Assembly (NCBI GenBank): GCA_002699145.1
Contig: PABK01000041.1
Span: 1-64,000, forward strand
Direction: 5' to 3'
DNA: 64,000 bases
Source: Halioglobus sp.
GTDB lineage: Bacteria; Pseudomonadota; Gammaproteobacteria; Pseudomonadales; Halieaceae
The notes beneath the pieces were generated by a model. The model did no database searches, was not told where the DNA came from, and was given only the letters and a program-made list of their open reading frames with translations. Below are positions 60,968-64,000 of this stretch, piece by piece (the first letter of the stretch is position 1; every line of letters starts with the position of its first letter). Position numbers and translations under genes: made by a program.

Positions 60968-63900
60968 ATGCGGGCAGCACAGCAGATTTTTCGGGTCCGG
61001 CGCGAGTACAACCAATGGGTGGCGAACCAGACGCTGGAGGACTACGCGCTGCGCTTTACCGCCAAGAGCGCACGGCGCTGGACGGCCTGGCAGGTGAGCA
61101 TGACCGCGCTGGGCGCCACCGCCTTCATGGCGCTGGAAGCGATCGGCGGGGCGATCACGCTCAACTACGGTTTCGTCAACGCCGTTGCGGCAATGCTCGC
61201 CGTGGGGCTGGTCTTTTTCCTTACCGGCTACCCGATCAGCTATTTCGCGGCAAAGCACGGCGTGGATATCGACCTGCTGACCCGTGGCGCCGGGTTTGGC
61301 TACCTGGGCTCGACCGTAACCTCGCTCATCTACGCCACGTTCACCTTCATCTTCTTCGCCATCGAGGCGGCCATCCTGGCCATGGCCCTGAAAGCCCTGT
61401 TCGGCATACCGGTGGCCATCGGCTATATTCTCTGCGCGATCGCGGTGGTGCCCGTGGTCACGCACGGTATCACCGCGATCAGCCGCTTCCAGCTCGGCAC
61501 CCAGTCCCTGTGGCTGGCGCTGCAGATCGCCGCCCTGCTGGCCGTGGCCTGGTTCGAGTTCGAGCGCCTGCCGGCGTGGAGTCAGTATCAGGGCAGCGCG
61601 CAGCCCGGCGCGGGCGGCACCTTCAACCTGGCCCTGTTCGGCGCCGCCTCGGCCATGCTCTTCGCGCTGATCGCGCAGATCGGCGAACAGGTGGATTACC
61701 TGCGCTTCCTGCCACCGCAAAACACCATCGGCAAGGGCGAGTGGTGGAGCGCACTGCTGCTGGCCGGCCCCGGCTGGATCCTGATCGGCATCGTCAAGCT
61801 GCTGGCCGGCTCATTTCTCGCCTGGCTCGCCTTCAGTGCCGGCGCCGACCTGGTTAGCGCCACCGACCCAACGCACATGTACCAGGCGGCGTTTGGCTAC
61901 ATCACCGGTTCGCCCGCGCTGTCCCTGCTGCTGGCGGGGCTGGTGGTGATCATCTCGCAAATGAAGATCAACGTGACCAACGCCTACGCCGGCTCCATCG
62001 CCTGGTCCAACTTCTTCTCCCGCGTGACCCACAGCCACCCGGGACGGGTGGTCTGGCTGGTGTTCAACGTCGTCATCGCGCTGGTGCTCATGGAACTGGG
62101 CATCTACCAGGCGCTGGAAAACACCCTCAGCCTGTTCGCCATCGCCGCGGTGAGCTGGCTCGGCACGATATCCGCCGACCTGACCATCAACCGCTGGCTG
62201 CGCCTGCGCCCGCCCGGACTGGAGTTCAGGCGCGCCCACCTGTACGACGTCAACCCGGTGGGCACCGGCTCCATGCTCATCGCCACCGGCGTGGGCCTGT
62301 CCTGCTACTTTGGCGTATTCGGCGCCGCCGCCGCGTCCCTGACCCACTACCTCACCCTGCTGGCGACCATGCTGGCGGCCCCGCTGCTGGCCTGGTACAC
62401 GGGCGGCCGCTACTATATCGCGCGCACACCGGAGCTGCTGCACGAGGACGGGCAATCCCGTCAGTGCTGCATCTGCGAAAACCACTTCGAGCTGGAAGAC
62501 ATGAGTCACTGCCCGGCCTACCAGGGCCCTATCTGCTCACTGTGTTGCTCCCTGGACAGCCGCTGCATGGACCGCTGCAAACCCGACAGCCAGGTCTCCA
62601 GCCTGCTGCAGCGCTGGCTGTCGCGGTTTCTGCCCGCCTCCATTGCACAGCGGGTGGATTCCCGCGTTGGCCAGTACCTCACCATCCTGCTGTTCCTGTC
62701 GCTGATCAATGCCGCCCTGTTCACCATGGTGTTCTATTCCGTGAGCCCCCAGGACGCGGCCGGCCGTGAGCTTGTCGCCAGCGCGCTGCGCACCCTGTAC
62801 TGCGTCTTTACCATCATTTCCGGTGTCTCCGCCTGGCTGTTCCTGCTCACGCGGGAAAGCCGTGTGGTGGCGCACGAGGAGTCCAACCGCCAGACCCAGT
62901 TGCTGGTCGCCGAGATCGAGGCGCACCGCGAGACCGACCGCGAGCTGCAGGACGCCAAGGAAGTCGCCGAGGCCGCCAACCAGGCCAAGAGTCGCTACCT
63001 GGCGGGCATCAGCCACGAGCTGCGCACGCCGCTGCAATCCATACTCGGCTACACGCAGATTCTTTCCCGGCACGAGGACATCCCCCGGCGGCGGCGCGAG
63101 ACCATCGACATCGTGCGGCGCAGCGGCGAGTACCTGGCCGACCTGATCGAGGGCCTGCTGGACATTTCCCGTATTGAGGCGGGCAGACTGGAGATCCGCC
63201 GCGAACAGGTTGACCTGCAGGCCCTGCTGGACGAAATGATCGGCATGTTCAGCCCGCTGGCGCACGACAAGAGCATCGCCTTCGAGAGTCATATCTCGGA
63301 GAACCTGCCGCGCTACGTCACCACGGACGAGAAGCGGCTGCGCCAGGTGCTGATCAACCTGCTGTCCAACGCGGTCAAGTTCACGGAGCGCGGACAGGTG
63401 GATTTCAGCGTGCGCTACCGCAACCAGGTCGCCGAATTCGAAGTCAGCGACACCGGCTGCGGTATCGCCGCCGAGAATACCGGGAAGATCTTCAACCCCT
63501 TCGAGCGCCTGCAGTCAGAGCGTCGCACACGGATTCCCGGCACCGGCCTGGGCCTGACCATCGTCAAACTCCTGGTTGAACTGATGGGCGGCAACATCGC
63601 CGTGCAGTCGACGCCAGGCGCGGGCACCCGCTTCACCGTCATGCTGATGCTGGCGACGGTGCGCCAGCCGCAAGTGCGCACACTGCCCACACGCGAGGTC
63701 GCGGGCTACGAGGGTCCGGTGCGCAGTGTCATGGTGGTGGACGACGAGCCGGACCACCGCCAGCTCATCGCCGACCTGCTGTTGCCATTGGGCTTCGACG
63801 TGCAGCCGGCGGACAACGCCGCCCAGTGCCTGGACATGCTGCGCGACTACCGGCCCGACCTGTTACTGGTCGACGTCTCCATGCCGGGCATGAACGGGCT

Positions 63901-64000
63901 GGAATTGGTGGCGCGGTTGCGCAAGGAGGGTGTGCGGCAACCTGTGATCATGATTTCCGCCGACGCCCAGGAACGCCACGGCGATCTCGACCAGGGGCGC
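60968..64000 (+). CDS. NCS1-type transporter fused to hybrid sensor histidine kinase (3' end outside the window)
   Basis: A frame of 1011 codons without a stop, running off the window. Residues about 1-490 form a multi-helix transporter of the purine/cytosine permease (NCS1) type, with RGAGFGYLGSTVTSLIYATF and ISQMKINVTNAYAGSIAW as family-like segments. Residues 500-537 hold nine cysteines (500, 501, 503, 515, 523, 526, 527, 533, 537). Two more helices follow (about 570-590 and 609-628), then a coiled coil, a HisKA box with His683 (SHELRTPLQS), an ATPase domain with Asn801, DTGCGI (828-833) and GTGLGL, and a receiver with Asp925/Asp926 and phospho-acceptor Asp969. All kinase and receiver residues are intact. 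The ATG at 60968 has only a weak ribosome site. It probably senses a solute through the transporter part, by analogy with CbrA, whose transporter domain is of another family; ligand and output are unknown. Confidence 0.88.
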   Translation, partial: MRAAQQIFRVRREYNQWVANQTLEDYALRFTAKSARRWTAWQVSMTALGATAFMALEAIGGAITLNYGFVNAVAAMLAVGLVFFLTGYPISYFAAKHGVDIDLLTRGAGFGYLGSTVTSLIYATFTFIFFAIEAAILAMALKALFGIPVAIGYILCAIAVVPVVTHGITAISRFQLGTQSLWLALQIAALLAVAWFEFERLPAWSQYQGSAQPGAGGTFNLALFGAASAMLFALIAQIGEQVDYLRFLPPQNTIGKGEWWSALLLAGPGWILIGIVKLLAGSFLAWLAFSAGADLVSATDPTHMYQAAFGYITGSPALSLLLAGLVVIISQMKINVTNAYAGSIAWSNFFSRVTHSHPGRVVWLVFNVVIALVLMELGIYQALENTLSLFAIAAVSWLGTISADLTINRWLRLRPPGLEFRRAHLYDVNPVGTGSMLIATGVGLSCYFGVFGAAAASLTHYLTLLATMLAAPLLAWYTGGRYYIARTPELLHEDGQSRQCCICENHFELEDMSHCPAYQGPICSLCCSLDSRCMDRCKPDSQVSSLLQRWLSRFLPASIAQRVDSRVGQYLTILLFLSLINAALFTMVFYSVSPQDAAGRELVASALRTLYCVFTIISGVSAWLFLLTRESRVVAHEESNRQTQLLVAEIEAHRETDRELQDAKEVAEAANQAKSRYLAGISHELRTPLQSILGYTQILSRHEDIPRRRRETIDIVRRSGEYLADLIEGLLDISRIEAGRLEIRREQVDLQALLDEMIGMFSPLAHDKSIAFESHISENLPRYVTTDEKRLRQVLINLLSNAVKFTERGQVDFSVRYRNQVAEFEVSDTGCGIAAENTGKIFNPFERLQSERRTRIPGTGLGLTIVKLLVELMGGNIAVQSTPGAGTRFTVMLMLATVRQPQVRTLPTREVAGYEGPVRSVMVVDDEPDHRQLIADLLLPLGFDVQPADNAAQCLDMLRDYRPDLLLVDVSMPGMNGLELVARLRKEGVRQPVIMISADAQERHGDLDQGR

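Follow-up and report, generated by a model that had tools for sequence, protein, structure and literature searches.

An NCS1-fold permease fused to a hybrid histidine kinase, a candidate sensor for urea and short-chain amides in Halioglobus and other Pseudomonadota

Transporter-kinase fusions with a regulon in the literature surveyed, so far as the portions of the sources at hand describe them, use a permease of the SLC5 family. In the CrbS/CrbR system a transporter-fold module is joined to a hybrid kinase, the partner is a LuxR-type regulator, and a palindromic box precedes genes of uptake and use (PMC5715377, PMC9100948). The permease is an SLC5 member with 13 transmembrane (TM) helices followed by a STAC linker, the regulon serves acetate, and a motif search revealed the CrbR box, which at acs reads TACTACCATCGTCGAAT and was put to the test in promoters carrying mutations (PMC5715377). 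Another example is CbrA of the CbrA/CbrB system of Pseudomonas, a fusion whose permease part transports L-histidine (PMC7096432). A further transporter-sensor fusion, that of NRAMP to a 5TMR receptor fold, has another transporter family and another order of parts, and no link to urea or amides is seen in the available part of the report (PMC11109136). The fmdCABDEF cluster of Methylophilus methylotrophus is a short-chain amide and urea system that is induced by formamide and urea and has a putative positive regulator named within it; the terms "histidine kinase" and "two-component" are absent from the main text of that paper (PMC10781810). Among the matches listed in a search of open-licence titles and abstracts, there was no fusion of an NCS1 permease to a kinase and no such sensor for fmd or urt/ure genes; one report concerns an NCS1 transporter of metformin (PMC13390362). 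Here a gene of this kind is described from Halioglobus sp. (assembly GCA_002699145.1, contig PABK01000041.1), at the end of a 64,000-nucleotide stretch that is referred to as the window. It shares the plan of CrbS/CrbR, yet has an NCS1 permease, a cysteine-rich linker and a predicted urea/amide regulon. At a probability of roughly 0.65, the NCS1-fold sensor kinase and the adjacent LuxR-type regulator form a two-component switch that turns on the import and hydrolysis of urea here, and of formamide and other short-chain amides in most of the relatives.

The kinase frame begins with an ATG at position 60968 of the forward strand and stays open through position 64000, the end of the window. Its 3′ end was obtained from the continuation of the contig (C57, of 326,919 bases; the window covers C57:1-64000), where the gene ends at position 64336 and encodes 1122 amino acids (aa). 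A preliminary description of the window had claimed one unbroken frame that joins a permease to a kinase with all catalytic motifs and a receiver. The full-length gene bears this out: neither a frameshift nor a stop separates the two modules, and three Pfam domains score above their cut-offs, namely HisKA (PF00512, 63.7 bits; aa 673-739, positions 62984-63184), HATPase_c (PF02518, 101.5 bits; aa 786-895, 63323-63652) and Response_reg (PF00072, 82.7 bits in the full gene; aa 921-1030, 63728-64000, truncated by the window end). The dimerisation and phosphoacceptor domain carries the motif SHELRTPL, of which SHELR is kept at 90% or more in 136 kinase sequences of at least 1080 aa (near copies counted), and the alignment of relatives shows the catalytic residues of both kinase and regulator to be conserved. 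On the same strand, the kinase is preceded by the permease module (aa 1-493, 60968-62446), a cysteine-rich linker with a putative metal-binding finger (aa 500-537, 62465-62578) and a two-helix hairpin with hydrophobic segments that leads into the kinase (aa 566-639, 62663-62884). Directly 3′ of the kinase lies the gene of the LuxR-type response regulator (L006:6337-7248, equal to C57:64336-65247), which matches Response_reg and GerE. The tail of the kinase behind the receiver (aa 1035-1122, L006:6071-6334) is partly conserved around an "iGy..g" core and has no Pfam match; it is possibly a docking or phosphotransfer element.

Kinase genes of the same type number 57 in 52 of 398 Pseudomonadota genomes, and none has a stop within the matched stretch. 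This set was reduced from 62 rows (55 genomes) by leaving out five of them: a stand-alone permease, a CodB-like match, a kinase with no permease, a fragment of 55 aa and a second piece from the same gene as another row; for genes without a fetched sequence, the presence of the kinase part was judged from the length of the open frame (894 to 1365 aa across the 57). Contigs of GTDB species supplied at least 560 relatives among 597 candidate stretches. The best 80 were retained, and they include sequences from Alcanivorax, Marinobacter, Marinobacterium, Marinomonas, Cellvibrio, Zhongshania, Bradyrhizobium, Afipia and Xanthobacter. Together, these uninterrupted genes and relatives exclude a chance open reading frame or a sequencing artefact, and the transporter-kinase fusion is genuine.

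The preliminary description had named the permease as NCS1-type and proposed to check this with the Pfam family Transp_cyt_pur (PF02133). That search gave no match to aa 1-493 even at E = 10, and no other Pfam family matched either. Across 70 family members no PF02133 match was found at E ≤ 0.3 (full list), nor among the 25 families listed, of 26, at E ≤ 1, and searches of Pfam and of Protein Data Bank (PDB) sequences with the module returned nothing useful. Since Transp_cyt_pur misses the module, its identity had to come from comparisons of profiles and folds. In hhalign, the profile of the 70 members aligned to an NCS1 profile with a probability of 98.9% (E 1.1e-17, 415 columns), against 0.3% for SSS and 0.27% for BCCT; the target profiles held eight (CodB, AllW and six genome-derived), three and two sequences, respectively, and APC, HAAAP and NRAMP, the last also of LeuT-type fold, were compared as single sequences only. 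Single-sequence targets were weaker, with 14% for CodB, 0.1% for AllW and about 3% or less for L112, L114 and L118, whereas L150, L113 and L110 reached 90, 92 and 67%; controls from other families stayed at or below 1.3%. The contrast with the SLC5-type CbrA that the preliminary description had drawn is upheld by these values for the SSS and NCS1 profiles.

A stand-alone permease, L149, links the module to the recognised family. It is 28% identical to the module across 478 aa (E 5e-30) and itself matches PF02133 with 36.4 bits (cut-off 23.5). At L149:9949-14373 this free permease of the same branch has a carbon-nitrogen hydrolase and a UrtA/AmiC-like protein (Peripla_BP_5) as neighbours; it is perhaps an amide or nitrile permease of the kind ancestral to the sensor module. 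An AlphaFold model built from the 70 sequences (pLDDT 87, pTM 0.89), which superseded a poor one from 10 sequences (pLDDT 67), has helices broken at 49/54 in TM1 and at 232/237 in TM6, as in the LeuT-type fold that had been suggested earlier. The first five ranks of a Foldseek search against the PDB are CodB (top hit 7qoa) and Mhp1 (2jln), with E from 4e-10 to 4e-8, and a sialic acid symporter of the SSS family ranks below them. On the profile comparison, the L149 link and the predicted fold, aa 1-490 are an NCS1 module, of a distant branch below Pfam detection. The NCS1 assignment of the preliminary description therefore stands, by another route than the family search it had proposed.

The surroundings of the gene point to urea. 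Beyond the regulator lie converging genes that were interpreted as ureG, F, E, C, B and D, followed by urtE, D, C, B and A. Of these, UreC, UrtE, UrtB, UreB and UrtA (580 bits, full gene) are confirmed by family models; the remaining ones were identified by inspection, the ureD-like gene having no NCBIfam match. A porin-like gene (Pfam 24.9 bits, cut-off 20.9) heads the urt-ure cluster. Relatives extend the picture to amides. Among 109 pooled loci, 106 hold the kinase, and these also contain the regulator (99), a UrtA-type binding protein (77), the formamidase FmdA (59), FmdB (53), the aliphatic amidase AmiE (30) or urease alpha (13), in a set where many loci are cut by contig ends, near copies are included and one genome appears twice (L024 and L045). 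By label, 62 of the 106 are amide-linked and 22 urea-linked. The neighbour protein clusters were named from one or two members each, and the clusters that occur in over 12 of these 109 loci all represent the kinase, the regulator, the urea or amide genes just named or further urt/ure genes, or consist largely of shadow frames that overlap such genes. For Bradyrhizobium, it was described in 2010 that the ABC transporter cluster lies beside acetamidase/formamidase and amidase genes, and amide rather than urea was inferred as its cargo (PMC3098086).

The same association is found in the 398 genomes. Within 15 kb of the 57 kinase genes, measured start to start, there is a formamidase gene in 38 cases, a UrtA-type gene in at least 38 and one or the other in at least 51; the UrtA counts are lower bounds, because the UrtA set consists of the matches listed. 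Of the six kinase genes that have neither nearby, three (L154, L155 and L161) are accompanied by urease alpha in the locus that was retrieved. FmdA above its cut-off occurs in 39 genomes, 38 of which have the kinase; 14 have the kinase alone and 345 have neither (Fisher p 3e-40, with no correction for kinship). On the tree of the sensors, the pathway labels change three times each, compared with shuffled means of 18.5 for amide and 18.7 for urea, with none of 500 shuffles as low, and the well supported branches force just two changes. Urea-linked sensors fall into a single large clade of Gammaproteobacteria, with smaller groups elsewhere. One locus, L167, was labelled urea in this test with FmdA 13 kb away, and was excluded from the urea group when alignment columns were compared.

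A DNA motif accompanies the kinase as well. An 18-bp palindrome, ATACGTCAATTGACGTAT, was derived from the regions that separate kinase genes from divergently oriented binding-protein genes, 29 of 58 being kept as non-redundant. Its log-likelihood at width 18 was 218, versus 31-33 in three shuffles, a gap that is somewhat overstated because 60 starting points were used on the real regions against 15 on the shuffles, which moreover permuted bases in blocks of two. In the genome of the window (5.2 Mb, outside the discovery set), the sole site with at most one mismatch is TACGCCATTTGACGTA at C57:77589-77604 (L179:3590-3605), 129 bp upstream of the porin ATG, with a second half-site, CTACGCCATTTG, adjoining it. 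The site is flanked on one side by the porin-urt-ure operon and on the other by a divergent gene whose product has a sigma-54 activator domain. A scan for sigma-54 promoters upstream of binding-protein genes was negative, with 3 of 77 versus 6.3% in shuffles.

Across a sample of our own choosing (46 of the 62 known kinase-positive genomes and 22 negatives, one kinase copy per genome), the kinase-positive genomes contain 37 sites versus 12 for the reversed control, and the negatives 4 versus 12. Of the 37, 31 are no more than 20 kb away from the kinase and are spread over 27 genomes. Eight of the 46 genomes had been part of the discovery set; a near site is present in 20 of the remaining 38, some of which may be kin of discovery genomes. 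The box stands directly before fmdA in four genomes (G297, G309, G437 and G479). Ten kinase-negative genomes with UrtA above the cut-off have no box near UrtA among the matches listed, which indicates that the box follows the kinase-regulator pair and not the urea operon as such. At L063 and other Bradyrhizobium-type loci there is no good palindrome in the interval from the kinase to the binding-protein gene, the best candidate in L063 being ATACGCAAGATCGCGTAT, at 9.5 bits, and the box may have drifted in this group.

Neighbourhood, phylogenetic profile and DNA box indicate urea and short-chain amides, and lend no support to the nucleobase, hydantoin or vitamin class of solute that the preliminary description had expected from the NCS1 family; the solutes are probably not nucleobases. 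A mechanism can be proposed on this basis. Periplasmic urea or amide would bind the central site of the NCS1 module, and the resulting conformational change would reach the kinase by way of the linker with its eight cysteines and the two-helix hairpin. Phosphate would then move from the histidine to the receiver aspartate of the hybrid kinase and from there, perhaps via a further phosphotransferase, to the response regulator, as the conserved catalytic residues suggest. From the distribution of the box and the precedent of CrbR, we infer that the regulator binds ATACGTCAATTGACGTAT upstream of the porin-urt-ure operon here, and of urt-like and fmdA genes elsewhere. Once activated, it would turn on the porin, the ABC transporter and the urease or amidases, and bulk uptake would be left to the regulon's own dedicated ABC transporter and its porin. 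Given that division of labour, the permease module is more likely a receptor than a main transporter; by analogy with CbrA, it may keep residual transport.

Several observations weigh against this proposal. No permease columns were found that cleanly and convergently split urea-linked from amide-linked sensors. Five loci with full 10-kb flanks (L032, L036, L038, L040 and L046) have the kinase and the regulator with no urea or amide clusters, and ten neighbour proteins from three of them match no urea or amide family; these loci belong to Marinomonas, Marinobacterium and Oceanospirillum. As for the box, 7 of the 29 discovery regions score below 10 bits, a box with one mismatch or none is missing from the vicinity of the kinase in 19 of the 46 kinase-positive genomes, and 6 of the 37 sites lie away from the kinase. 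In the genome of the window there is no box at the kinase-regulator pair itself, and matches to the box and to its reversed control number 1 and 1 at up to one mismatch, and 5 and 12 at up to two. With the control as frequent or more, it is the place of the site in this genome that is telling, and not the number. Another factor could bind the box.

The foremost alternative is a true transceptor, in which the NCS1 module would transport urea or amides and the kinase would read the flux, in the manner of CbrA. The residues that correspond to those of CodB speak to both possibilities, with equivalences taken from a low-identity sequence alignment to Escherichia coli CodB that has a gap beside TM6a; the paper on the CodB site concerns the Proteus protein, and E. 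coli CodB has the same residues at those numbers. CodB Arg216 and Tyr285, counted in that paper among the most conserved residues, are retained as Arg246 and Tyr340 in all 70 members, a likeness to CodB that adds to the fold shared with CodB and Mhp1, and a transporting permease part has its precedent in CbrA with L-histidine (PMC7096432). On the other hand, the Na2 hydroxyls of CodB, Thr278 and Thr279, correspond to Lys333 (70/70) and Ile334 (69/70, with Val in one), so that both threonine side chains of the sodium-coupled NCS1 members, a trait not shared by all of NCS1, are replaced. This change need not abolish transport, as in two stand-alone relatives, L149 and L157, the positions are occupied by Arg and Ile. 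The module thus differs from CodB, AllW and Mhp1 in the loss of the Na2 threonines, an altered aromatic sandwich, its distance from the Pfam family and its fusion to a kinase. The dedicated ABC transporter and the porin-like gene in the same cluster also argue against flux through the permease as the signal, and a true transceptor is considered unlikely.

The cysteine-rich linker suggests another input. Its eight cysteines (C500, C503, C515, C523, C526, C527, C533 and C537) are each invariant in the 70 members, and comparisons with family libraries gave weak zinc-finger-like matches only, with no family placement; the region between permease and kinase in the window protein has no Pfam match above cut-off. 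Behind it, the AlphaFold helices 566-592 and 597-639 form the hairpin that connects to the kinase. These parts recur in other combinations. The 887-aa protein at L152:7502-10162, near a formamidase gene, combines the permease and the cysteine linker with a shorter kinase that has no receiver. An 881-aa protein at L153:8666-11308, also near a formamidase gene, has the permease module, its architecture being judged by length only. At L151:3857-6705, a Cys-rich N-terminus, the hairpin region, a kinase and a receiver occur without the permease, next to an alcohol dehydrogenase-like gene and a LuxR-type regulator (names assigned by eye). In place of the solute, the input could be nitrogen status, an ion gradient or a metal sensed by the cysteine finger, such as nickel for urease, or zinc, with the permease as a mere anchor; the invariance of the cysteines, their retention with the permease in the receiver-less variant and the survival of a Cys-rich N-terminus and hairpin region in a kinase that lacks the permease all fit this idea. 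An anchor, however, would not need the polar permease residues Glu133, Gln237, Glu240, Gln241, Lys333 and Asn335, each kept in 70 of 70 members, and the metal of urease is not a common factor where 62 of 106 loci are amide-linked and 22 urea-linked. Such an input with a passive permease is quite improbable.

Least probable, and very doubtful, is that the permease senses a classical NCS1 solute (nucleobase, hydantoin or allantoin), with an indirect link to urea because purine breakdown yields urea: the likeness to the CodB/Mhp1 fold, and to the NCS1 profile with CodB and AllW among its members, would suit it, but the frequent neighbours are urea and amide genes, formamidase co-occurs with the kinase in 38 of 39 genomes, and the alignment of the cytosine site to CodB, a check proposed in the preliminary description, places Thr126 (70/70), Phe129 (67/70) and Leu234 (65/70) at Gln105, Trp108 and Phe204.

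The architecture of the NCS1-fold sensor kinase, the family of its permease, its gene linkage and the statistics of the box are computed here. A broader proposal, held tentatively and at somewhat less than even odds, is that these proteins are a widespread unnamed class of NCS1-fold receptor-kinases in Alpha- and Gammaproteobacteria, with a site adapted to amides and urea (Glu133, Gln237, Glu240, Lys333 and Asn335, with Lys at a sodium-ligand position) that would act as their dedicated receptor, and a regulon marked by ATACGTCAATTGACGTAT. Their logic is that of the SLC5/STAC kinases, from which they differ in transporter family, linker and solute class. If this is true, a second transporter family has been taken into use for sensing, and LeuT-fold permeases became receptors more than once. 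It would also provide a candidate for a sensor specific to urea and small amides, solutes for which the substrate-induced amide operon of Methylophilus has only a putative positive regulator named in the portion of the report at hand (PMC10781810). The predicted box renders the claim testable with one reporter.

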